Below the pieces are notes generated by a model. It was not told the DNA's origin and did not search any database. It was given only the letters and a program-made list of their open reading frames with translations. Shown piece by piece: positions 1 through 52,129 of a DNA stretch of 64,000 bases. Source of the stretch: Jejuia pallidilutea (GTDB taxonomy: Bacteria > Bacteroidota > Bacteroidia > Flavobacteriales > Flavobacteriaceae); contig NZ_PVEO01000001.1 of NCBI RefSeq assembly GCF_002973595.1, forward strand, positions 310,001-374,000, in the 5' to 3' direction. The stretch's first letter is position 1. The number at the start of each line of letters is the position of its first letter. Made by a program: the position numbers and the translations under genes.

Positions 1-859
1 CAAAATGATTAATTCTCGACGGTTCGTTTGATTTTAAAATATTGGTTACAGCATATACAACCCCCGATGTTCCTCCTGTTGCCGCCACTTCTCCATGATT
101 AAACACATTTAAGGACAATGCATTGTTGGGTTGGTCGCCTGCTCTGTAAGTTACAGGAATACCTTGTGGCAAACCTGTAGCTTTTGCACCAGTACCGTTC
201 ACGTTACTTTGTGCTGTGAAATTTTCTACAATATCTGGTGTTAAGGCAGTGTTTATATCATAATGTTCTAATAACCAATTAGCAACGGTATCGGTTTCAT
301 AATCCCAAAGCATACCTTCAGACAAACCGTTTTTAGTGGTATTAATTACACCCGTTAGCTTCATTGCGATAAAATCACCAGGAAGCATAAATTTGTATAT
401 TTTGCTGTAAATTTTTGGTTCGTTATCTCGTACCCACTTCAATTTAGACGCTGTAAAATTTCCTGGAGAATTGAGAAGTTTTTGCATACAACGATCTTCT
501 CCTAATGTATTAAAAGCGGTGTCGCCAATATCTACAGCGCGACTATCGCACCATATGATGGAGTTACGCAAAGGCTCACCAGCGTTATCTACAACAACAA
601 GCCCATGCATTTGATACGAAATACCAATAGCCTCGATTTTAGACGCATCAATATTACTTTCTTTTATGGCGCGCTTGGTCGCCACACATACAAAATGCCA
701 CCACATATTGGGATCTTGTTCTGCCCAATTTTGTTGTGGTGCTACGATTTCCATTTCATTAGTTGGTTCATTCAAAGTCATCACGTTTGCACCTGTATTG
801 GCATCTACAATGGAGACTTTTACCGAAGAACTTCCCAAATCATATCCTATATAATACAC
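1..859 (-). CDS. xylB: Xylulokinase-type FGGY sugar kinase, N-terminal part (runs off left edge)
   Basis: This partial gene covers 286 codons of an FGGY-family carbohydrate kinase. The translation opens YYIGYDLGSSSVK, the N-terminal phosphate-binding motif of the family. It later shows an SYQMHGLV motif, an IIWCDSR motif and a GTSGVVYAV segment, all typical of xylulokinases. The likely reaction is ATP-dependent phosphorylation of D-xylulose; a related kinase such as ribulokinase cannot be excluded without the C-terminal half. The start is GTG at 859-857, because an in-frame TAA lies directly before it and no ATG precedes the YYIGYDLG motif. The gene is divergent from the arsenosugar cluster. 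Pentose metabolism fits the GH43/GH3 locus at the far end of the window, though that link is only inferred. Confidence 0.8.
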   Translation of the reverse strand, partial: MYYIGYDLGSSSVKVSIVDANTGANVMTLNEPTNEMEIVAPQQNWAEQDPNMWWHFVCVATKRAIKESNIDASKIEAIGISYQMHGLVVVDNAGEPLRNSIIWCDSRAVDIGDTAFNTLGEDRCMQKLLNSPGNFTASKLKWVRDNEPKIYSKIYKFMLPGDFIAMKLTGVINTTKNGLSEGMLWDYETDTVANWLLEHYDINTALTPDIVENFTAQSNVNGTGAKATGLPQGIPVTYRAGDQPNNALSLNVFNHGEVAATGGTSGVVYAVTNILKSNEPSRINHF

Positions 860-1050: not shown

Positions 1051-1386
1051 ATGCAAAAAACATATTACGATCCAGCAGACCTGAGAAAATTTGGAAAAAT
1101 TACGGAATGGAGCGAAGAATTAGGCACTAAATTCTTTGAGTATTACGGAAAGGTTTTTGAAGAGGGCGCGCTTACCGCCCGCGAAAAATCGCTTATAGCC
1201 CTTGCCGTAGCGCACACAGAGCAATGCCCATATTGTATTGATGCCTACTCGCAAGATGGCTTGCAACGTGGCATTACAAAAGAAGAAATGATGGAAGCCA
1301 TACACGTAGGTGCTGCTATTAAAAGTGGGGCAACCTTAGTACACGGTGTGCAAATGATGAACAAGGTAAATAAATTGGATGGGTAG
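1051..1386 (+). CDS. AhpD-like protein of the arsenosugar cluster
   Basis: This 111-residue all-alpha protein belongs to the carboxymuconolactone decarboxylase/AhpD superfamily. It carries a CPYC redox motif at residues 59-62, preceded by TEQ and followed by IDAYSQ. Length and motif match the peroxidase-like protein that accompanies arsenosugar genes (the family named arsenosugar biosynthesis-associated peroxidase-like, from memory). The role is not established; a thiol reductant or protective role during arsenic chemistry is plausible. It is the first gene of the cluster and is followed by a 353-bp repeat-rich gap, so cotranscription with arsS is uncertain. A weak -7-like TATCTTTA lies at 1025-1032. 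Confidence 0.82.
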   Translation: MQKTYYDPADLRKFGKITEWSEELGTKFFEYYGKVFEEGALTAREKSLIALAVAHTEQCPYCIDAYSQDGLQRGITKEEMMEAIHVGAAIKSGATLVHGVQMMNKVNKLDG

Positions 1387-1393
1387 AAAGCCC

Positions 1394-1440
1394 TTCCTAA
1401 CCTCTCCAAAGGGGAGGAACACCTCTCATGGATTTAGGAA
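1394..1440. repeat. Nested inverted repeat after the AhpD-like gene
   Basis: Outer arms TTCCTAA (1394-1400) and TTAGGAA (1434-1440) match perfectly. They enclose a second stem, CCTCTCC (1401-1407) with GGGGAGG (1411-1417), which has one G-T pair. No T tract follows, so it is not a classical terminator. Similar elements are common between genes in flavobacteria (recollection, not checked). Confidence 0.6.
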
Positions 1441-1739
1441 GTTAAAAAATATAGCTCGATTAAAAAAGAAAATAGCAAAAAGTCGAAACCCAAATCAATT
1501 CGCAGAATTGAATGTCCAAGGCCAGAATAGATGAAGTAAAGCTACGAGAACAGGAGAACGACAGTTCGATGCGGAGTTTTCAAATCGGTCTCCAGTGTTT
1601 TCAACTGGAAAATTCCTCGACTTGAACTTGATTTTTTGGTTCATCGTATTTAGCTTAAAACGTCCACCGGATCTTTCAAACTAAATAGTGCATCAAGGCA
1701 AAATGAACAAAACTAAAAAAGTAGTCCCTAAGAAAGCAT
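1441..1739. other. Gene-free stretch resembling a decayed dispersed repeat
   Basis: No coding region with a credible start is visible here. The stretch has a small hairpin, CCAGT (1592-1596) with ACTGG (1604-1608). It also holds a TTTTTTGGTTCATC segment near 1633-1646 and a partner-like CATCAAGGCAAAATGAAC near 1690-1707. This arrangement resembles a dispersed intergenic element remembered from other flavobacterial genomes. Within this window it appears only once, so repeat status is inferred. Confidence 0.35.
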
Positions 1740-2804
1740 ATGACGAAAGTAAAAACACAATCACTACACAAACGCGAAAGCGCATTAGCCAATAGCAAAA
1801 GACAATTAGAAATTCTGTCGAATGGTATTTTTAAAAATGGGGATTTACCAACTTTTGCCTCTAAAATTGGAGAAACTAATCAATTTCCCCTAAAAGCTAA
1901 AAAACTAGAAATCCTTCAGATTAATGTGGGATACATGTGTAATCAAGTATGCGAACATTGTCATGTAGATGCTGGTCCAGACCGAAAAGAAATTATGACC
2001 AAAGCAACTATGCAACAATGTTTAGATGTTATTAAAAACACAGGGGCACACACCTTAGATTTAACAGGTGGTGCACCAGAAATGAATCCTAATTTTAGAT
2101 GGTTTGTTGAGGAAGCGTCAAAAGCAGGAATTAAGGATTTTATTGTACGCTCTAACCTTACCATAATAAAAGCCAATAAAAAGTATTACGATTTACCGGA
2201 ATTCTTCAAAAAACACAATGTACATGTAGTGAGTTCTATGCCGCATTGGACAAGGGGCAAAACAGACAAACAACGTGGTGATGGTGTTTTCGATGCCTCG
2301 ATAGAAGCTCTAAAAATGCTAAACACTATTGGGTATGGCATGCCAGAGAGCAGTTTACGCTTAGATTTGGTTTATAACCCGTCGGGGGCATTTTTACCAG
2401 GAGACCAAATGGCTATGGAAAAGGATTTTAAAAAGGCGTTGTTAGAAGATTTTGGAATTCAATTTCATAATTTATTTGCCATTACTAATTTGCCAATTTC
2501 AAGGTTTTTAGATTATTTAATAGCTTCAGAAAACTATGAAGATTACATGTACCAATTGGTTGAAGCATATAATCCTTCTGCGGTTAAAAACGTTATGTGC
2601 ACCAATACGCTTTCGGTTAGTTGGGATGGGTATTTATACGATTGCGATTTTAACCAAATGCTAGAACTACCTGTAAATAGTAAAGTAAAACATATCTCAG
2701 ATTACAACGAAGACCTTTTAGAAGGCAGAACTATTGTAATTTCACAACATTGCTATGGCTGTACTGCTGGTGCGGGAAGTAGTTGCCAAGGCTCTGTAGC
2801 TTAA
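1740..2804 (+). CDS. arsS: Arsenosugar biosynthesis radical SAM protein ArsS
   Basis: This 354-residue radical SAM enzyme has the CxxxCxxC cluster motif at Cys67, Cys71 and Cys74 (MCNQVCEHCH). It is followed by an LDLTGGAPE SAM-binding segment and a Cys-rich C-terminal part with CYGCTAGAGSSCQG. This C-terminal domain (DUF3641 type) and the length match ArsS. The family is reported to use S-adenosylmethionine as the source of a 5'-deoxyadenosyl group, attaching it to dimethylated arsenic. In some relatives a Cys of the C-terminal motif is selenocysteine; here all positions are ordinary Cys codons. arsM, a phosphorylase and two glycosyltransferase-like genes follow downstream, which supports the assignment. 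Confidence 0.9.
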   Translation: MTKVKTQSLHKRESALANSKRQLEILSNGIFKNGDLPTFASKIGETNQFPLKAKKLEILQINVGYMCNQVCEHCHVDAGPDRKEIMTKATMQQCLDVIKNTGAHTLDLTGGAPEMNPNFRWFVEEASKAGIKDFIVRSNLTIIKANKKYYDLPEFFKKHNVHVVSSMPHWTRGKTDKQRGDGVFDASIEALKMLNTIGYGMPESSLRLDLVYNPSGAFLPGDQMAMEKDFKKALLEDFGIQFHNLFAITNLPISRFLDYLIASENYEDYMYQLVEAYNPSAVKNVMCTNTLSVSWDGYLYDCDFNQMLELPVNSKVKHISDYNEDLLEGRTIVISQHCYGCTAGAGSSCQGSVA

Positions 2805-2811
2805 AATAAAT

Positions 2812-2854
2812 GACCTGCAAGGTATCTTCGAGGAACGAGGATTCCTTGTAGGTC
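2812..2854. repeat. Hairpin element 1 between arsS and the rhodanese gene
   Basis: The arms GACCTGCAAGG (2812-2822) and CCTTGTAGGTC (2844-2854) pair with one G-T wobble around a 21-nt loop that contains its own short inverted motif. It could act as a transcript-end or stabilising structure after arsS. The same arm sequence returns in the next hairpin. Confidence 0.6.
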
Positions 2855-2876
2855 TGAAAAAATGAAATGAAAACAC

Positions 2877-2901
2877 CTACAAGGTTTTAAAGACCTTGCA
2901 G
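2877..2901. repeat. Hairpin element 2 just upstream of the rhodanese start
   Basis: CTACAAGGT (2877-2885) pairs with ACCTTGCAG (2893-2901), with one wobble. It is a shorter sibling of the hairpin at 2812-2854. A TTG at 2896 inside it could open the rhodanese frame, but the ATG at 2911 is the better start. Confidence 0.55.
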
Positions 2902-2910
2902 AATAAAAAA

Positions 2911-3405
2911 ATGAAAAAATTAGCTCTATTTATTTGTATTAGTATATCTGTTTCAGGATTTTCCCAAAAGAAATTAGACAAACTTTTAAAACGACAGAAT
3001 ACAGAATCTATCCCATACATTTCAGTAGATGCACTAAAAAACATTCAAAATAATGTTATTCTTTTAGATGCCCGCGAAGAAAGAGAATTTAAAATCAGTC
3101 ATCTTAAAGATGCCATTTGTGTAGGTTATGATAGTTTCAATTTAAAAAAAACCGAAGTAAAACTACCAAATAAGGAAGCCAAAATTGTAGTGTACTGTTC
3201 ACTTGGTATCAGATCAGAAGATGTTGCTGAAAAACTAAAAAAAGCAGGCTACACCAATGTTCTAAATTTATACGGTGGTATTTTTGAATGGAAGAATAAC
3301 GATTTAGAAGTATTAAATTCGAAAGAAAAACCTACAGACTCCGTCCATACATTTTCTAAAGTTTGGAGTAAATGGTTAAAAAAAGGCATAAAAGTATATG
3401 ACTAA
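2911..3405 (+). CDS. Exported rhodanese-like sulfurtransferase of the arsenosugar cluster
   Basis: From the ATG at 2911 the product has 164 residues. Its first 18 form a signal peptide (KKLALFICISISVSGFS), so it should act in the periplasm. A single rhodanese domain follows: LLDAREEREF near 51-60, an active-site loop CSLGIRS with Cys96, and a closing YGGIFEWK near 121-128. Such proteins carry persulfide sulfur, and here it may serve arsenic or thiol chemistry, which is inferred. A frame-open TTG at 2896 would add five residues before the signal peptide and lies in a repeat, so it was rejected. The last 8 bp overlap the next gene, which indicates translational coupling. Confidence 0.85.
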   Translation: MKKLALFICISISVSGFSQKKLDKLLKRQNTESIPYISVDALKNIQNNVILLDAREEREFKISHLKDAICVGYDSFNLKKTEVKLPNKEAKIVVYCSLGIRSEDVAEKLKKAGYTNVLNLYGGIFEWKNNDLEVLNSKEKPTDSVHTFSKVWSKWLKKGIKVYD

Positions 3406-4027
3406 AGAACTTATTATTGTTTTTGTGAAGAACATTACACTTGGAAAGGTAAAAACCCGACTAGCGAAAACTATTGGAGATGTTGGTGCTTTTGAAGTTT
3501 ATAAAGAACTGGTTGCCATTACAGAAAAAGCAACGTTAAATGTAGAAGCCGATAAGCGCATCTATTTTTCCGATACCATCATTAACGAAAAATGGCAAGG
3601 CTTTGAAAAATTTATACAAGAAGGTACAGATCTTGGCATTCGTATGAAAAATGCTTTTGCAAGAGGTTTTGAAGATGGTTATGAGCGTATTGTGCTAATC
3701 GGTTCCGATTTACCAGATATTAATGCAACGCATATTTTTAATGGATTAAAAGCTTTAGAAAAAAGCGACACTGTTTTTGGTCCCGCGGAGGATGGTGGCT
3801 ATTATCTTATCGGCCAATCAAAACATTATAATTTCCTGTTTGAAAACAAGCCCTGGAGTAAGGATAATTTATTAGAAAAAACACTACAAGAACTAACAGA
3901 AAAAGCCGTTACATTTAGTACTTTAGAAACACTAAATGACATTGATACCTATGAAGATTTAATAGCTTCAACGTTTTACAAATCGAATAAAAAACTACAA
4001 GAAAAAATAAAACAATTACATGCTTAA
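3398..4027 (+). CDS. TIGR04282-type glycosyltransferase-like protein (DUF2064)
   Basis: This 209-residue cytoplasmic protein has the fold motifs of the DUF2064/GT-A nucleotidyl- or glycosyl-transferase group. A GKVKTRLAKTIG loop lies near 16-27 (nucleotide binding), GSDLPDI at 102-108 (metal-binding acidic motif), and GPAEDGGYYLIG at 128-139. It matches the family known as TIGR04282, recurrent beside rSAM/arsenosugar genes. Its probable role is a transfer step on the arsenoriboside, but donor and acceptor are unknown. It overlaps the rhodanese gene by 8 bp and the phosphorylase gene by 8 bp, so the three are surely cotranscribed. Confidence 0.85.
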   Translation: MTKELIIVFVKNITLGKVKTRLAKTIGDVGAFEVYKELVAITEKATLNVEADKRIYFSDTIINEKWQGFEKFIQEGTDLGIRMKNAFARGFEDGYERIVLIGSDLPDINATHIFNGLKALEKSDTVFGPAEDGGYYLIGQSKHYNFLFENKPWSKDNLLEKTLQELTEKAVTFSTLETLNDIDTYEDLIASTFYKSNKKLQEKIKQLHA

Positions 4028-4832
4028 ATTTATTAATGAAACAGTAGACTACCTTAAAGACAAAGGTTTTAACGAACCCGAAGTAGGCATTATTCTAGGT
4101 ACTGGCCTAGGCCAACTCATTAATTCTATTGAAATTTTAAAAGAAGTAAGCTATAACCATATTCCTAATTTTCCAACAGCTACCGTTGAGTTTCACAAAG
4201 GAAAGCTTATCTACGGTAATCTAGCCGGAAAAAAAGTCGTGGTAATGCAAGGACGTTTTCATATTTATGAAGGCTACACATTACAAGATGTAACGTATCC
4301 TGTGCGTGTTATGCAACAATTAGGTATTACAACACTTTTAGTATCTAATGCTGCTGGCGCCATTAATTTAAATTTCAAAAAAGGGGAATTAATGCTGATT
4401 GATGATCATATTAATCTTCAAGGAAGTTCTCCACTTGCCGTAAGAGGCATTGAACAAATGGGTGAGCGTTTTGTAGATATGAGCGCACCATATAACGCAG
4501 ACATTAACGCCAAATTTAAAAGTATAGCAAAGGCACACAACATAACTTTACACGAAGGTATTTATGCCAGTGTTGTTGGTCCGCAATTAGAAACCAGAGC
4601 GGAATACAGAATGCTTAAAATTATTGGTGCAGATGCCGTTGGAATGAGTACCGTTCCAGAAATTATTGTTGCGAATCATTTAAAATTAAAAGCAGCTGCC
4701 GTATCTGTTTTAACAGATGAATGCGACCCAGATAACCTAAAACCTATAAATATTGAGGAAATCATAGCTATGGCGGCCATGGCTGAACCAAACATGGTGA
4801 TCCTTTTTAAAGAATTGATTAAAACACTTTAA
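4020..4832 (+). CDS. Purine nucleoside phosphorylase, trimeric PNP-I type
   Basis: The 270-residue protein has the PNP landmarks: ILGTGLGQL (25-33), QGRFHIYEG (77-85), SNAAGAIN (109-116), VGPQLETRAEY (186-196, including the base-binding Glu191) and GADAVGMSTVPE (203-214). The segment VSVLTDEC aligns by eye with the human stretch that contains Asn243, placing Asp233 at that position. In human PNP an Asp there is known to shift preference to adenosine. In this cluster the enzyme would split adenine from 5'-deoxy-5'-dimethylarsinoyl-adenosine, which is inferred. Ordinary purine salvage is the alternative. It overlaps the preceding gene by 8 bp. Confidence 0.9.
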   Translation: MLKFINETVDYLKDKGFNEPEVGIILGTGLGQLINSIEILKEVSYNHIPNFPTATVEFHKGKLIYGNLAGKKVVVMQGRFHIYEGYTLQDVTYPVRVMQQLGITTLLVSNAAGAINLNFKKGELMLIDDHINLQGSSPLAVRGIEQMGERFVDMSAPYNADINAKFKSIAKAHNITLHEGIYASVVGPQLETRAEYRMLKIIGADAVGMSTVPEIIVANHLKLKAAAVSVLTDECDPDNLKPINIEEIIAMAAMAEPNMVILFKELIKTL

Positions 4833-4869
4833 GTTAGTTTATTTAGTAGCAGTAAGCAGTCAAGTGTCT

Positions 4870-4932
4870 ACTGCATACTGAATACTTCATACTGCATACT
4901 GCATACTGAACACTGAACACTGAAAACTAAAA
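4870..4932. repeat. Nine-copy 7-bp tandem array abutting the arsM start
   Basis: Nine uninterrupted heptamers of pattern ACTKMAH run from 4870 to 4932. In order they are ACTGCAT, ACTGAAT, ACTTCAT, ACTGCAT, ACTGCAT, ACTGAAC, ACTGAAC, ACTGAAA and ACTAAAA. The arsM ATG begins at 4934, one base later. The array therefore forms the untranslated region next to the start codon, and changes in copy number would alter it. Confidence 0.85.
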
Positions 4933-4933
4933 C

Positions 4934-5905
4934 ATGAGCACATACTTAGAAACCACACACAAGGTATACAAAGAAGCAGCTATAACCCCAGATGTTGGCC
5001 TATGCTGTACCACTAACCCAATTTGGGAACTACCAGGGCTAAAAATCCCAAAAATTATGCAAGAAATGAACTATGGTTGTGGATCTACTGTGCATGCAAG
5101 AGACCTTACCAACAATCCAAAAATGCTATATGTGGGCGTTGGTGGCGGCATGGAATTGTTGCAGTTCGCTTATTTTAACCGACAAAAAGGTGGCGTTATT
5201 GGTGTTGATGTGGTGGATGAAATGTTGGAAGCCTCAAGAAGAAACTTTATTGAAGCCGAAGCTCTAAACAACTGGTTTAAAAGTGAATTTGTTGACCTTA
5301 AAAAAGGAGACGCCTTAAACTTACCTGTAGAAGACAATACAATTGATGTTGCTGCCCAAAATTGCTTGTTCAATATTTTTAAAGCTGAAGATTTAAAAAA
5401 GGCTATCGCAGAAATGTATCGTGTGCTTAAACCTCATGGACGTTTAGTAATGAGCGACCCAACTTGTGAACAACCAATGAATGACACACTACGTAATGAT
5501 GAGCGTTTGCGTGCCTTATGCTTAAGCGGAAGTTTACCAATTGCCGATTACGTAAAAGCACTAACCAATGCTGGTTTTGGTACCATTGAAATTAGAGCTA
5601 GAAAACCTTACAGAATATTAGATCCTAAACATTACCCAACCAACGAATTAATTTATATAGAGTCTATTGAGGTGGCAGCCATAAAAGACCCAATGCCCGA
5701 AGACGGACCGTGTATTTTTACTGGAAAAGCTGCTATTTACTATGGTGACAACGATTATTTTGATGACAAAAAAGGACATGTGTTATTAAAAAATCAGCCT
5801 TTAGCTATATGCGATAAAACTGCTGGAGCGTTAGCTAATTTAAAGCGGCACGATATTTTCATTAGTGAATCTACTTACCACTACGATGGTGGCGGGTGCT
5901 GTTAA
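4934..5905 (+). CDS. arsM: Arsenite methyltransferase ArsM, arsenosugar-associated type
   Basis: This 323-residue SAM-dependent methyltransferase has a GVGGG motif I (68-72) and a GVDVVDE segment (90-96). The arsenic-binding cysteines of ArsM are recognisable: CCTT (Cys24-25), NYGCG (Cys49), AQNCLFN (Cys144) and RALCLSG (Cys196). The last two sit 52 residues apart, close to the spacing in algal ArsM. The chain ends in GGGCC (Cys322-323). The expected reaction is stepwise methylation of As(III) to dimethylated arsenic, the substrate for ArsS. No Shine-Dalgarno-like sequence is present; a 7-bp tandem array precedes the ATG. The DUF547 gene follows after 20 bp. Confidence 0.92.
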   Translation: MSTYLETTHKVYKEAAITPDVGLCCTTNPIWELPGLKIPKIMQEMNYGCGSTVHARDLTNNPKMLYVGVGGGMELLQFAYFNRQKGGVIGVDVVDEMLEASRRNFIEAEALNNWFKSEFVDLKKGDALNLPVEDNTIDVAAQNCLFNIFKAEDLKKAIAEMYRVLKPHGRLVMSDPTCEQPMNDTLRNDERLRALCLSGSLPIADYVKALTNAGFGTIEIRARKPYRILDPKHYPTNELIYIESIEVAAIKDPMPEDGPCIFTGKAAIYYGDNDYFDDKKGHVLLKNQPLAICDKTAGALANLKRHDIFISESTYHYDGGGCC

Positions 5906-5925
5906 TCACTAATTAACACTAAGTT

Positions 5926-6813
5926 ATGAAATTATTGAGTCTCATTTTTTTAACCTCTTTAGTACTATCTTGTTCTGGTACTAAAAGCGTAGTTAACAAC
6001 ACCAAAAAACCTACTCCCAAACCAACACCTAAAACAGAGGAAAATGGTTCTGTAGCCAATAGCAATACTGAGGTTATAAAAATAACAGACACTTTGTATG
6101 TTCCTGATTCTAATGAGGAAATTGAAATTATTGAGAAGCCAATACTAAATGCAGAAGAAAATGTTCCAGAAGTATTTAATCATAACATATTAAATAATTT
6201 ACTTAAAGCGTATGTTTCTGAAGCAGGAAATGTGAGTTATAAGGACTTAAAGAAAAATCATAAACTACTACTAAGTTATATTGAACAATTAGGCAAAAAT
6301 ATACCAAATAACGCTTGGTCTAAAGAAGAGAAACTTGCCTACTGGATTAATGCTTACAATGCTATGACTATTGACTTAATCCTACGTCATTATCCAGTAA
6401 AAAGCATAAAGGACATTAAAAATCCATGGCAGCAACGCTACTGGAAATTGGGAGAAAAATGGTATAATTTAGATGAAATAGAGCACGACATTTTACGTAA
6501 AATGAACGAACCACGCATTCATTTTGCTATTGTTTGTGCTTCTTATTCGTGTCCTAAATTACAAAATGAAGCCTTTAATGCTTCCAATTTAGAAGCTCAG
6601 TTAACTAACGCTACCAATGAGTTTTTAAGTGACCCTGAACGAAATGCTATTTCAGTAAACAACTTAGAACTTTCTAAAATATTCCAGTGGTTTGCTAAGG
6701 ATTTTAAACAGAACGGTTCGCTAATCGATTTTTTAAATCGATATTCTAAGGTAGAGATTTCGCAAAATGCTAAAAAACATTTTAAAGATTACAGTTGGGA
6801 TTTGAATGAATGA
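5926..6813 (+). CDS. DUF547 lipoprotein of the arsenosugar cluster
   Basis: The 295-residue product starts with a lipoprotein signal (lipobox LVLSC, Cys16) and a low-complexity Lys/Thr/Pro linker. A DUF547 domain follows at about 85-290, with YWINAYNAMTIDLIL near 139-153 and an FAIVCASYSCPKL segment near 201-213. DUF547 resembles papain/transglutaminase-like folds, and the Cys in ASYSCPKL is a candidate functional residue, but no reaction is known. Its position 20 bp after arsM suggests a role with the arsenosugar genes, perhaps at the cell envelope. A second DUF547 protein is at 15437-16150. Confidence 0.82.
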   Translation: MKLLSLIFLTSLVLSCSGTKSVVNNTKKPTPKPTPKTEENGSVANSNTEVIKITDTLYVPDSNEEIEIIEKPILNAEENVPEVFNHNILNNLLKAYVSEAGNVSYKDLKKNHKLLLSYIEQLGKNIPNNAWSKEEKLAYWINAYNAMTIDLILRHYPVKSIKDIKNPWQQRYWKLGEKWYNLDEIEHDILRKMNEPRIHFAIVCASYSCPKLQNEAFNASNLEAQLTNATNEFLSDPERNAISVNNLELSKIFQWFAKDFKQNGSLIDFLNRYSKVEISQNAKKHFKDYSWDLNE

Positions 6814-6826
6814 CACAACGTATCAT

Positions 6827-6876
6827 CCTGAATTCATTTAAGTACCTCATCTAGATTCTAGAATAAATTCAGAATA
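6827..6876. repeat. Imperfect inverted repeat between the DUF547 and TIGR04283 genes
   Basis: CCTGAATTCATTT near 6827-6839 faces AATAAATTCAG near 6862-6872, with an inner palindromic TCTAGATTCTAGA. It resembles a short dispersed intergenic element of flavobacteria (recollection). It may stabilise or attenuate the transcript between the last two genes. Confidence 0.4.
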
Positions 6877-6891
6877 ACAAATACAAGTTTT

Positions 6892-7590
6892 ATGAATAAA
6901 ATTTCCATCATTATACCTACTCTAAATGAAGCAGCCACTATTGAAAAACTGCTGAAGCATCTCTTTGAAAATTCATCTAAAGAAAATATTGAAGAGGTAA
7001 TTGTGGTTGATGGTGGGAGTATTGATGGTACACTAGATGTTATTAGACCCATAAGGTCTGTTAAAGCGATATTAGCAGAAAAAGGTCGCGCAAAACAAAT
7101 GAATCATGGCGCAAAAGCTGCCAAAGGTAATGTGCTCTACTTTTTACATGCAGATTCTTTTCCACCTAAAAATTTTGATACCTATATACTATCTCAAATA
7201 CAAAAAGGCAATAATGCAGGGTGTTTTAGAATGAAATTTAACAACAGCCATTGGTGGCTAAAATTGGCAGGATGGCTCACCGCCTTACCCATTATGGCGA
7301 GCAGAGGTGGCGACCAAAGTTTATTTATTACCCAAAAACTATTTAAAGACATTGGGGGATATAACGAGCAGTTTTTTATTTACGAGGATAATGAACTAAT
7401 AAAAAAACTGTTTTCTATAAATGAATTTGTTGTAATTCCTAAATGGTTAACAACCTCTGCAAGATGTTATGAAAAACATGGCGTTTGGAAAACACAATAT
7501 CATTTCTGGTGTATTCATTTAAAACGAAAATTGGGCGCTTCCCCAAATGAGCTTACTAAGTATTACAAGGAAAATTTAATTAACTCTTAA
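6892..7590 (+). CDS. TIGR04283-type family 2 glycosyltransferase of the arsenosugar cluster
   Basis: The 232-residue cytoplasmic GT2 enzyme shows IIPTLNEAATI (7-17), VVDGGSIDGT (38-47), the DxD-like LHADS (85-89), GGDQSLF (139-145) and YEDNELI (164-170). It matches the TIGR04283 family, which pairs with TIGR04282 proteins and rSAM/arsenosugar genes. It probably transfers a sugar- or glycerol-type group to the arsenoriboside; substrate not determined. It is the last gene of the cluster and converges on the phosphatase gene with a 4-bp overlap. Confidence 0.85.
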   Translation: MNKISIIIPTLNEAATIEKLLKHLFENSSKENIEEVIVVDGGSIDGTLDVIRPIRSVKAILAEKGRAKQMNHGAKAAKGNVLYFLHADSFPPKNFDTYILSQIQKGNNAGCFRMKFNNSHWWLKLAGWLTALPIMASRGGDQSLFITQKLFKDIGGYNEQFFIYEDNELIKKLFSINEFVVIPKWLTTSARCYEKHGVWKTQYHFWCIHLKRKLGASPNELTKYYKENLINS

Positions 7591-8710: not shown

Positions 8711-11377
8711 ATGAAAAAAATTACCTTTCTTTTTCTATTGCTGTTTTCGGCTTCAGTACTGGGACAAACAACGTACAATATTGACGACCCTGAAGCCGTT
8801 CGAGATGTAATTTACCAACCAGGAGATGTTATTATTTTAAAAAATGGCACGTACACTACCGATGAACGCATTAGGTTTCTTGGTTCTGGTACCGCAGAAA
8901 ACCCTGTGATTTTAAGAGCTGAAACACCAGGAGGCGTTATTTTTACCGGAGGGCCACGTTTAACTATTGGTGGTGAAACCGATGATACTACAGGCGATAA
9001 AATTGCAACTGGTGAATACCTAATTGTTGATGGTTTCCATTGGAAAGGCGGCTACGGTGCTAGTAATTTTATTGAATTTAGAAATGGTACCGATTATGCC
9101 CACCATAGCACCATTAGAAATTGTGCAATTGATGGATTAGGTATTGAGCCAGACGAATTAGCTGAGGATTTATTAGATGAACAAATACCAAAACATAGAT
9201 GGATTGTACTTTACGGTACTTACAATAGCGTAATTAACTGCACATTTATGAATAAAGTAAGTGCAGGTGCTATAATTTTAGGGGAATACTCGTATAACGC
9301 ATTTCCTGTTGTACCCGATGGAGAGCCAGAAATAAATAATAGTTGTGCTGAAGTTGGCCATACCATAATGAATAATTATTTCTATAATTATGAAAAAATG
9401 ACCGAGAAATACGGTAGAAAAGCCAATGGTGACGAATTATCAAACGCTGGAGATAGCGAAACTATTCGCATTGGTACAAGCTCTTACCAAATGGTAAATA
9501 GTAACGTAACGGTTAGTAACAATTATTTTGTGCAAGCCGATGGGGAAAATGAAATTATAACCAATAAAAGTAAAGGCAACACCTATACAAACAATACGTT
9601 TAGAAGATGTAGAGGCTCTTTAGTGTTACGCCATGGTTCTTACGCTACAGTTGATGGCAACTATTTTTTAGGTGAAGATGTTGAAGGTACCGGAGGTATT
9701 AGAATTTCTGATAGTTACCACACCATTACAAATAATTACATACAAGATTGTATAACCGTTAATGATTTCGCAAAATGGAATAATGGCATTACCTTTATTG
9801 GTGGTGGCGCTAATGCTGACGTTTCTTGTACTACCGACGACACATCAAATGGCTATCAAGAAAGCAACAGTATTACACTTTCTAACAATACCATTGTGAA
9901 TACAAACGCGCCTTTGTTCTATAATGTAAATACAGATAACAATAATGACATTACAGGAACGGTTTCTAATAACTTAATTTATTTTGAAGCTGGCAACCCC
10001 AATATCACTCCTATAATTTCAGGAGACGACCCCACATCGTATGCCAATATAGGCAGTACATTAACGTATAATGGAAACGTGTACACAGGAACAACTTTGG
10101 GTGAAACAAATGCAGGGTTTTCTGAAGAAACTGGAATTACAGCGAATGCTGATGGTGAAATTTTTACTTTTTCAGGTACGGGAACTACAGGAAAAGGTGC
10201 CGACATGGGCGCTTATTCTCCTGCAACCGATGCCATGGTTGGTTATGGTATTGGCGCTTGTTTCTTAGATTATACAGGATCTGGTATTACCAATGGCGAT
10301 TGTACCATTGAAGTTATTGAAACCTTAACCGTTAGCAGCCTACCTCCGCTAAATCCTAATGCTGGCAGCTACGATGTGTCTGTTAATGCTAATGTAAGCT
10401 GGACAGCGCTATCAAACGACGATTGGATATCTATTGATGTAGCCTCTGGTACTGGTGCCACTACTGTCTCTGTAACGGTAACTGAAAATACCGAAACTAC
10501 AGAAAGAGTTGGCACAGTAACATTTACACAAATTCCTGGAGGCGACGATATTGTTAGAACCCTAACCGTAACTCAAGAAGGCGCAGACCTAACAGATATT
10601 TATAATCTTATTAATGATGTGCCTGGTGGTGGCCCAGTTTCTATTCACTCGTTTTCAAAAGAACAGGTAGATGGAACATCAAAATTTAACTATGCCGCAA
10701 ATACTCTAGATAAAGATACTGGTACGCAATGGACGGCAGATGATGGTGACATTTTAGTTGATGATTACAAAGGTGATGGTGAATATGTTATTTTTGATTT
10801 AGGTGAAGCCTACAATTTAGATTTAATTAGAATTGCTACTGATGATAAATCCGATCCTTATGGTTTACAAATTTGGATATCAACTACCGGAACAAATCCT
10901 GCTGATTTTACGATGCTATTACCAACTTCAGGCGATTTATTGATAACCACAACAACTGGAACTCGCGATGATTACGACCAATATGAAATTACTGCGAACG
11001 CACGTTATGTTAAATTAATGAGCTTTGGAAGATTTAATACTGCTGGAGACTCCAGAAAAAGTGTTTGGACAAATATTACCGAAATTGAGTTTTTTGGAAC
11101 AGCAAGCGCTTTGTCTATTAATGATATGTCTAAAGAAGATATAAAACTTTTTCCAAATCCGGTTCGTAATGGTATGTTGTACTTAAGTAAAACAAATAAT
11201 AATTTAGATAAATTAACTATTTACAATATTTCTGGTAAAGCAATATTAACTAAGAATCTTAATGCTAGGTTAAGCAAAGAAACTATTGATGTTTCGTCAA
11301 TTTCAGAAGGTTTCTACTTTGTTGAAATTGTAAAAGGCAGTAGTAAACATATAAGCAAGATTATTATTTCAAAATAA
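8711..11377 (+). CDS. Secreted PL6 alginate lyase with BACON, discoidin-like and type IX sorting domains
   Basis: The 888-residue product begins with a signal peptide (cleavage near 18-19). It continues with a right-handed beta-helix lyase domain of family PL6 (chondroitinase-B-like), about 20-500, recognisable by DVIYQPGDVIILKNGTY, RWIVLYGTYNSV and repeated Asn-rich turns. A BACON domain follows at about 535-625 (WTALSNDDWISI), then an F5/8 type C-like carbohydrate-binding domain at about 640-800. The last 75 or so residues form a type IX secretion sorting domain (LFPNPVRNG start, IIISK end). It should cleave alginate by beta-elimination outside the cell. No SusC/SusD or other alginate genes are adjacent, so it is a solitary lyase. 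A terminator follows. Confidence 0.9.
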   Translation: MKKITFLFLLLFSASVLGQTTYNIDDPEAVRDVIYQPGDVIILKNGTYTTDERIRFLGSGTAENPVILRAETPGGVIFTGGPRLTIGGETDDTTGDKIATGEYLIVDGFHWKGGYGASNFIEFRNGTDYAHHSTIRNCAIDGLGIEPDELAEDLLDEQIPKHRWIVLYGTYNSVINCTFMNKVSAGAIILGEYSYNAFPVVPDGEPEINNSCAEVGHTIMNNYFYNYEKMTEKYGRKANGDELSNAGDSETIRIGTSSYQMVNSNVTVSNNYFVQADGENEIITNKSKGNTYTNNTFRRCRGSLVLRHGSYATVDGNYFLGEDVEGTGGIRISDSYHTITNNYIQDCITVNDFAKWNNGITFIGGGANADVSCTTDDTSNGYQESNSITLSNNTIVNTNAPLFYNVNTDNNNDITGTVSNNLIYFEAGNPNITPIISGDDPTSYANIGSTLTYNGNVYTGTTLGETNAGFSEETGITANADGEIFTFSGTGTTGKGADMGAYSPATDAMVGYGIGACFLDYTGSGITNGDCTIEVIETLTVSSLPPLNPNAGSYDVSVNANVSWTALSNDDWISIDVASGTGATTVSVTVTENTETTERVGTVTFTQIPGGDDIVRTLTVTQEGADLTDIYNLINDVPGGGPVSIHSFSKEQVDGTSKFNYAANTLDKDTGTQWTADDGDILVDDYKGDGEYVIFDLGEAYNLDLIRIATDDKSDPYGLQIWISTTGTNPADFTMLLPTSGDLLITTTTGTRDDYDQYEITANARYVKLMSFGRFNTAGDSRKSVWTNITEIEFFGTASALSINDMSKEDIKLFPNPVRNGMLYLSKTNNNLDKLTIYNISGKAILTKNLNARLSKETIDVSSISEGFYFVEIVKGSSKHISKIIISK

Positions 11378-50566: not shown

Positions 50567-52129
50567 TTACGAACTACAAGATAGCATTGAGCAGCCTACT
50601 TTATGGCGAGCCCAATCTGGTCTTTTGGCAAACCATTTATCATATTCTGGTTGCGCATCATAGGGTTTTTTTAGCATGTTAAACAACTCGCTAATTAACT
50701 TGTAATCGCCTTTATCTGCTGCATCTATCGCCAATTGCGCCATATAATTTCGCAATACATATTTTGGGTTTATAGCGTTCATTTTTTTGCGTCTTTCGGT
50801 GTTGGAAAGCGTTTCGCTTTGTAACCTTTTTGCATAACTATTAAACCAATCGTTCCAGCGTTTTTCTATATTTCCAACAATTTCATTTGGCTTATAAAAG
50901 GCTTCATTAATTAGGTTTAACCCTTCTGTTGGATTTTCTGGCTTAAAACTGCTTAAATTTCTAAAGAAAATAGTCATATCGGTTTCTGTAAGGTGCAAAA
51001 CATCTTCAAGCGCTTGCATAATTTTTACATCGGTTTCCTCTTCACGATACAAGCCAATTTTAGAACGCATCATATTAAGGGATCCGCTTTCAAAATCAGT
51101 TTTATACTTATTTAGAATAGTTTCTAAAGGTGCTGCTTCTTCAATTAAAGGATACAACGCATTTGCTAATTGCAGCAAATTCCACAAGCCAATATTGGGC
51201 TGATTTCCATAACGGTAACGTTTATGCTGCCTGTCGGTAGTATTTGGCGTCCAACCATACTCATACCCTTCTAGCCAACCATAGGGCCCATAATCTATAG
51301 TTAAACCAAGAATAGACATATTATCTGTATTCATTACACCATGAACAAAACCAACACGTTGCCAATGTATGATCATTTCTAGAGTTCGCTCTGACACCTC
51401 CTTAAAAAACTGAATATAGGTTGCTTTAGAAGGTGTTCCTAAATGCGAAAAATGATTATTTATGGTATAATCTACCAAAGTTTTAAGTGTATCTTTATCT
51501 TGTCTTGCGGCAAAAATTTGATAATTCCCAAAACGTAAAAAAGACTCTGCTACCCTGCAAACAATAGCCCCTTTTTCGTAAGCTGGATTACCATCGTACA
51601 TAACATCTCTTAAAACTTTATCGCCCGTAAGTGCCAAAGACAAGGCTCTGGTTGTTGGGACTCCTAAATGAAACATAGCTTCGCTACATAAATACTCGCG
51701 AATAGACGAACGCAATACTGCTAAACCATCGGCAGTTCTGGAATATGGGGTTTCCCCAGCACCTTTTAATTGTAATTGCCAATGTTTAGATTGGTGCTCA
51801 ACTTCACATAAATTTATAGCGCGCCCGTCGCCCAATTGTCCTGCCCAATTGCCAAACTGGTGCCCACCGTAACACATGGCATAAGGTTTGGTATTTGGCA
51901 ATACTTGGTTTCCTGTAAATACATTTAAAAATATATCGCTTTTAGCGTCTTTCTCAGGAATTCCTAAATTATGCAACATTTCAGGAGATACGTGCACTAA
52001 TTCTGGTTTTGAAGTTTGTTTTGGTGCTACATAAGAAAAACAGGCATTAGTTACCTGTCTTCTAGTGTTTTCTAAAATAGGGTCTGCGGGTAACTTACTA
52101 TTAAATTTATCTTTTATGTTTAGTTTCAT
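50567..52129 (-). CDS. selO: SelO/YdiU family protein adenylyltransferase
   Basis: The 520-residue pseudokinase-fold enzyme shows GDGRAINL, LQLKGAGETPYSR, RSSIREYL and the active-site HGVMNTDNM plus IDYGPYGWL segments. SelO transfers AMP to Ser/Thr/Tyr of redox proteins. The C-terminus GCSMLSCSS keeps Cys where some homologues have selenocysteine. It overlaps the glutaredoxin-like gene by 4 bp and is 1 bp from the divergent MsrA gene, so it lies inside a methionine/thiol repair operon. Glutaredoxin is a known SelO target in E. coli, which makes this arrangement meaningful. Confidence 0.92.
   Translation of the reverse strand: MKLNIKDKFNSKLPADPILENTRRQVTNACFSYVAPKQTSKPELVHVSPEMLHNLGIPEKDAKSDIFLNVFTGNQVLPNTKPYAMCYGGHQFGNWAGQLGDGRAINLCEVEHQSKHWQLQLKGAGETPYSRTADGLAVLRSSIREYLCSEAMFHLGVPTTRALSLALTGDKVLRDVMYDGNPAYEKGAIVCRVAESFLRFGNYQIFAARQDKDTLKTLVDYTINNHFSHLGTPSKATYIQFFKEVSERTLEMIIHWQRVGFVHGVMNTDNMSILGLTIDYGPYGWLEGYEYGWTPNTTDRQHKRYRYGNQPNIGLWNLLQLANALYPLIEEAAPLETILNKYKTDFESGSLNMMRSKIGLYREEETDVKIMQALEDVLHLTETDMTIFFRNLSSFKPENPTEGLNLINEAFYKPNEIVGNIEKRWNDWFNSYAKRLQSETLSNTERRKKMNAINPKYVLRNYMAQLAIDAADKGDYKLISELFNMLKKPYDAQPEYDKWFAKRPDWARHKVGCSMLSCSS

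Follow-up and report, generated by a model that had tools for sequence, protein, structure and literature searches.

Which enzymes could carry an arsenic nucleoside on to an arsenosugar? The question is raised by a 64,000-nucleotide stretch of the Jejuia pallidilutea genome (contig NZ_PVEO01000001.1, positions 310,001 to 374,000; referred to here as the window), in which an eight-gene cluster of arsenosugar families lies on the + strand between positions 1051 and 7590. All eight genes named in an earlier, sequence-only reading of this DNA are present: seven pass curated NCBIfam cut-offs and the eighth, encoding a DUF547 protein, passes in Pfam only (Table 1; scores are in bits throughout). ArsM and ArsS have been studied already. 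The comparison presented here supplies an assayable candidate enzyme for each step between the arsenic nucleoside and the arsenosugar; its value lies mainly in assigning enzymes to these late steps and in evidence for part of the cluster outliving ArsS.

A candidate route to arsenosugars

On balance, we favour arsenosugars or their lipids as the products of the cluster, reached through a chain formed by ArsM, ArsS, a purine nucleoside phosphorylase (PNP), TIGR04282 and TIGR04283. ArsM would methylate arsenite to dimethylarsenic, and ArsS, a radical S-adenosylmethionine (SAM) enzyme, would add a 5'-deoxyadenosyl group to give 5'-deoxy-5'-dimethylarsinoyl-adenosine. Phosphate would displace adenine in the PNP reaction, leaving 5-deoxy-5-dimethylarsinoyl-ribose 1-phosphate; TIGR04282 would convert this arsenoribose 1-phosphate to a nucleoside diphosphate (NDP) sugar, and TIGR04283, a GT2-family protein, would transfer the arsenoribosyl unit to glycerol or to a lipid head group. 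The present analysis shows to which families the proteins belong, that their gene order is conserved, and what fold and key residues they have. That ArsM methylates arsenic and ArsS adenosylates it is taken from the family literature; we infer all steps after ArsS, the roles of the AhpD-like, rhodanese and DUF547 proteins, and the end product.

The two early enzymes score well above their family cut-offs. ArsS carries the marks ascribed to it previously, namely a CxxxCxxC motif (CNQVCEHC, residues 67-74) and C-terminal Cys residues at 338, 341 and 349, and its closest named match is from Hyunsoonleella jejuensis (96% identity), placing the host close to that genus within Flavobacteriaceae. Adenosylation of dimethylarsenic is the function predicted from its family; radical SAM arsenic adenosylation is described as part of oxo-arsenosugar biosynthesis in PMC12159101. 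In ArsM the CC tail noted earlier is found at 322 and 323. The accompanying figure of four Cys sites is an undercount, because the protein has ten Cys residues (24, 25, 49, 144, 178, 196, 260, 293, 322 and 323), all of them invariant in an alignment of 18 ArsM sequences.

Less can be said of the companions. The AhpD-like protein (TIGR04169) has a CPYC motif starting at residue 59 and is a possible reductant of the arsenical. The rhodanese-domain protein has CSLGIR as its active loop and, judged by eye, an apparent signal sequence; its start is probably the ATG at 2911 rather than the TTG at 2896. The N-terminus of the DUF547 protein is lipobox-like. Since a fold search with its structure model (predicted local distance difference test, pLDDT, 82.0) matched nothing in the PDB at E ≤ 0.001, no mechanism is proposed for it; a profile scan likewise gave no NCBIfam match.

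The proposed order of events has a parallel in the hopanoid side chain, where, according to PMC12583986, the radical SAM protein HpnH adenosylates and a putative phosphorylase, HpnG, takes off adenine. The logic of radical SAM adenosylation followed by phosphorylase-driven adenine removal would be common to both. They differ in that ArsS scores 30.9 on the HpnH model (cut-off 225.05) and that the acceptor is arsenic for ArsS and hopene for HpnH.

TIGR04282 resembles nucleotidyltransferases

The seven NCBIfam matches in the window are to arsenosugar families (TIGR04167, NF038099, TIGR04169, TIGR04282, TIGR04283 and NF045521) or to the PNP family NF006054. The names of the former omit PNP from the pathway and call TIGR04282 a glycosyltransferase, as did the sequence-only reading. 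The fold does not bear out this name. Foldseek searches with an AlphaFold model of TIGR04282 (mean pLDDT 94.7) gave as best PDB match 3cgx, a putative nucleotide-diphospho-sugar transferase, followed at ranks 2-9 by CofC or FbiD (Rv2983) entries (query template modelling scores 0.63-0.73) and at ranks 10-20 chiefly by cytidylyl- or nucleotidyltransferases. The nearest solved folds are not glycosyltransferases. Residues invariant in 30 sequences include G16, K19, R21, L22, D104, D132, D181 and D183, with a GKxKTRL stretch and three Asp conserved. The score also exceeds the Pfam CofC cut-off (27.6 vs 22).

FbiD binds two Mg ions through D116, D188 and D190, as stated in PMC6450877. Like these, the three Asp of TIGR04282 (present in 30/30 sequences) agree in count and spacing type, a comparison of patterns made without superposition. 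This limit, the first named glycosyltransferase at rank 21 with GT-A enzymes from there on, and a score far below the CofC equivalog TIGR03552 (37.8 vs a cut-off of 105) all count against the assignment. When the sequence profile was run against solved sequences, 3cgx was the sole significant match, the CofC/FbiD likeness coming from the fold search alone. A full-text literature search, with most subscription papers outside it, found no paper joining TIGR04282 or TIGR04283 with a nucleotidyltransferase. Altogether, the model suggests that TIGR04282 is a nucleotidyltransferase of the CofC/FbiD kind that would activate a sugar 1-phosphate and not a glycosyltransferase. It shares fold and three-Asp pattern with the guanylyltransferases of F420 biosynthesis and differs from them in falling below their equivalog cut-off and in this proposed substrate.

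Active-site residues of the cluster PNP

The window PNP has E191, D233 and I245. On alignment to the solved Asn-type PNP 8swu, D233 corresponds to Asn and I245 to His. We take His257 of PNP to contact the 5'-hydroxyl. Changing Asn243 of human PNP to Asp reportedly raised the efficiency with adenosine about 4,000-fold (PMC6128611), and His257 is among the active-site residues of the calf enzyme (PMC9916683). Asp and Ile, as against Asn and His in the inosine-type enzyme, would suit a 5'-modified adenosine as substrate. The protein falls narrowly short of the inosine/guanosine-specific model TIGR01700 (291.4 vs a cut-off of 293.35).

A survey of 164 PNP sequences from the loci in hand, in which one genome may give several loci, tempers this picture. 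Asp occupies the 243 position in 164/164, and the 257 position holds Ile in 142, Val in 9 and His in 13, the His sequences coming from 9 genomes, all of which lack ArsS and any TIGR04282 match. Ile or Val also occurs in genomes having neither ArsS nor the gene block described below (G021, G029, G040 and G053, with Ile), and the solved PNPs 4lna and 4m1e likewise combine Asp with a hydrophobic residue. These observations speak against a special link to arsenic: neither residue marks its use, because Asp is in every sequence aligned and Ile/Val is also found in block-free genomes. Asp at position 243 was therefore dropped as a marker of the arsenic cluster and Ile/Val at position 257 is a weakened one.

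Conservation of the cluster

The cluster is common and not peculiar to J. pallidilutea. ArsS exceeded its cut-off in 215/299 Flavobacteriaceae genomes and in 104/247 genomes sampled across the phylum; given the former figure, Flavobacteriaceae could play a part in arsenic cycling in the sea. Among viral contigs, one partial ArsS locus was seen.

Gene order was compared in 60 ArsS neighbourhoods of 20 kb each, a non-random set hand-picked out of the 215 from best-scoring matches on long contigs. All eight genes, in the window order and on a single strand, were found in 33/60, sometimes with intervening genes, which argues that the cluster reflects more than chance. The order was complete but for rhodanese in 4 more; 3 had AhpD-ArsS-TIGR04282-PNP only and 9 a solitary AhpD-ArsS pair. 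AhpD was within the neighbourhood at 59 of the loci and PNP at 47.

A fatty-acid-hydroxylase-like gene, not seen in the window cluster, occurs in 24 of these neighbourhoods (e.g. L040:5926-6840); its nearest named model is the ornithine lipid hydroxylase OlsE, below whose cut-off it falls. Sterol-desaturase-family genes are present in the Acinetobacter and Thiodictyon arsS regions. That such genes accompany ArsS hints at a lipid product. In another arsenosugar cluster, ArsM and DUF547 are separated by genes for a phosphate-type binding protein, permeases and an ATPase (L045:1415-5740), which may serve in the uptake of arsenate or phosphate.

Co-occurrence was scored in 80 hand-picked genomes, 42 with ArsS and 38 near-complete ones without it; Fisher tests on this set ignore kinship and serve as a guide only. 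TIGR04282 passed its cut-off in 42/42 genomes with ArsS vs 12/38 without, TIGR04283 in 39/42 vs 11/38, rhodanese in 37/42 vs 11/38 and ArsM in 39/42 vs 0/38. PNP was found in 42/42 and 32/38, as a single copy in each of the 74. Three genomes with arsS (G007, G257 and G268) have family ArsM, TIGR04283 and rhodanese all below cut-off, which does not favour the complete chain.

Outside the family the picture is patchy. A plasmid survey returned 54 records with a match, and six lineages carrying real ArsS were examined. Methylthioadenosine phosphorylase (MTAP) lies in the arsS region of 3/6, those of Acinetobacter portensis, Cupriavidus and Burkholderia glumae; in the last, MTAP is grouped with TIGR04282 and TIGR04283 on the strand opposite arsS, some 6 kb away from it. 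The substrate of this enzyme being a 5'-modified adenosine, as proposed for the window PNP, its presence supports the phosphorolysis step. MTAP stands in for PNP in these three regions; the two are distinct in that the window PNP scores far below the MTAP model TIGR01694 (91.3 vs 274.85). Less favourably, MTAP was absent from the examined stretches of the Hymenobacter, Pseudanabaena and Thiodictyon plasmids, and neither PNP nor MTAP was near ArsS in any of 20 loci from Bacteroidota outside Flavobacteriaceae, drawn from the 104 ArsS-bearing genomes. TIGR04282 was near ArsS in 10 of these loci and TIGR04283 in 8, one score of each being weak. The link between phosphorylase and ArsS is thus strong within Flavobacteriaceae and on some proteobacterial plasmids and is missing elsewhere.

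The late genes persist without arsS

In the 12 loci carrying TIGR04282 among the 38 genomes without ArsS, TIGR04282 adjoins PNP in every case, and rhodanese is present in 10, TIGR04283 in 10 and DUF547 in 8. Such retention runs counter to a purely arsenical role. A quick tree built from the block proteins, which is not a species tree, requires 8 changes of the arsS label, at least 4 of them forced by well-supported branches. Between two genomes of one genus that lack arsS (G001 and G236), nonsynonymous divergence (dN) of the block genes is 0.063-0.159, synonymous divergence (dS) being saturated or 3.2. Because dN is low, the block genes are not decaying. Reliable dN/dS values were 0.039 for TIGR04282 in this pair and 0.034-0.258 for four values from G263/G042; the remaining comparisons between genomes without arsS gave none because dS was mostly saturated.

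The earlier claim of a complete arsenosugar cluster is supported as regards ArsM and ArsS, the companion families and their order. It is not supported in tying rhodanese, TIGR04282, PNP, DUF547 and TIGR04283 to ArsS and ArsM. As genomes with neither ArsS nor family ArsM carry TIGR04282 and TIGR04283, the label "arsenosugar biosynthesis" on these two families is too narrow.

At one locus without arsS (G263, L251:12033-13785), an ArsM-like methyltransferase (181.3, below the cut-off of 263) and a radical SAM protein other than ArsS directly precede rhodanese-TIGR04282-PNP-DUF547-TIGR04283. A kinase closest in NCBIfam to S-methyl-5-thioribose kinase (129.5, below the cut-off of 275) adjoins an ADP-ribosylglycohydrolase and precedes the block in 7/12 loci without arsS, in 4/11 arsS genomes where block and ArsS lie at separate sites and in 0/60 ArsS neighbourhoods.

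A second locus with apparently exchangeable contents

A divergent TIGR04282 paralogue, T4282b, lacks the GKxKTRL stretch and keeps three Asp (D86, D165 and D167) in 17 sequences. It is present in 20/80 genomes, 10 with ArsS and 10 without. In all 10 of the former it adjoins AhpD-ArsS; in 9/10 of the latter an outer-membrane receptor comes after it (a SusC/SusD pair in six, another type in three), the remaining genome (G184) having neither receptor nor AhpD-ArsS. Permeases and a YnjB-like substrate-binding protein accompany the receptor at seven of these nine loci and a RihC-like nucleoside hydrolase at five, so that importer or hydrolase is present at all nine. In three genomes (G263, G242 and G199) a non-ArsS radical SAM protein lies inside the importer cassette, joined in G263 by the ArsM-like methyltransferase. 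Because flanking genes are common to the ArsS and receptor versions, the locus looks like a single slot with interchangeable cassettes. ArsS and SusC/SusD are both present in two arsS genomes outside the T4282b set (G071 and G074).

The retention of TIGR04282-PNP without arsS, and the replacement of AhpD-ArsS by receptor, importer and hydrolase at this second locus, raise the prospect that the block activates 5-substituted ribose phosphates of more than one source. A broader reading, which we put forward with considerable doubt, is that the block serves general activation of 5-deoxy-5-substituted ribose 1-phosphates. Arsenic makers would produce the unit in-house through ArsM and ArsS, then phosphorolysis. 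Relatives lacking arsS would import a riboside through a TonB receptor and an ABC importer, split it with the nucleoside hydrolase and rephosphorylate the product through the methylthioribose-kinase relative, the inputs being interchangeable at the T4282b locus. Conceivable candidates for the riboside are arsenosugars from algae and other 5'-modified nucleosides.

Alternative explanations

The late steps admit other readings. PNP could be a mere salvage enzyme for purines, 5'-deoxyadenosine or methylthioadenosine that happens to sit in the operon, another enzyme taking adenine off the arsenical. Its single-copy occurrence in 74/80 genomes with or without arsS, its absence near ArsS in the 20 outside loci and active-site residues common to genomes without arsS are in keeping with this; yet the J. 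pallidilutea genome already has a separate DeoD phosphorylase (and a third superfamily member, uridine-phosphorylase-like), PNP keeps company with ArsS in 47/60 neighbourhoods and with TIGR04282 in all 12 block loci without arsS, and MTAP has been recruited independently elsewhere, so that we judge mere salvage improbable. The chance seems equally small that TIGR04282 and TIGR04283 are both glycosyltransferases and that an NDP-arsenosugar does not exist: the curated names and the GT-A enzymes of the same fold would accommodate it, whereas the CofC/FbiD and nucleotidyltransferase entries that fill the ranks above them, and the conserved GKxKTRL and Asp residues, do not.

Somewhat less remote, if still unlikely, is that rhodanese-TIGR04282-PNP-DUF547-TIGR04283 has an arsenic-free function, for example in a ribosyl lipid or glycan, and that ArsM and ArsS joined it so as to load its carrier with arsenic. 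The 12 block loci without arsS, the forced label changes and the low dN would follow naturally from such a history; an arsenic origin with later losses also fits them, TIGR04282 is much commoner with arsS, and the G263 locus itself holds an ArsM-like methyltransferase.

Layout of the locus and neighbouring genes

The coordinates are collected in Table 1. Overlaps of 8 bp, previously described as several, do exist and number exactly two, rhodanese/TIGR04282 and TIGR04282/PNP; the remaining intergenic gaps are 353, 106, 101, 20 and 78 bp.

Table 1. Genes of the cluster, with family scores and curated cut-offs in bits (NCBIfam for seven genes, Pfam for DUF547)
Gene product	Family	Window position	Strand	Score	Cut-off	Remarks
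AhpD-like protein	TIGR04169	1051..1386	+	191.2	120	111 aa
ArsS, radical SAM	TIGR04167	1740..2804	+	443.8	300	
Rhodanese-domain protein	NF045521	2911..3405	+	211.5	145	open reading frame scanned from 2896
TIGR04282 protein	TIGR04282	3398..4027	+	183.2	134	
Purine nucleoside phosphorylase, trimeric type	NF006054	4020..4832	+	343.7	218	
ArsM, arsenosugar type	NF038099	4934..5905	+	575.2	400	
DUF547 protein	PF04784	5926..6813	+	104.1	27	
TIGR04283 protein, GT2 family	TIGR04283	6892..7590	+	239.1	182	Pfam Glycos_transf_2

The window edge truncates an FGGY carbohydrate kinase (2-859, minus strand), of which the N-terminal part remains; it lies upstream of the cluster and is read away from it. Downstream, positions 8711-11377 encode a member of the chondroitinase-B family that bears a type IX secretion tail, algal or animal polysaccharide being a possible target, and a SelO protein adenylyltransferase lies at 50567-52129 on the minus strand.

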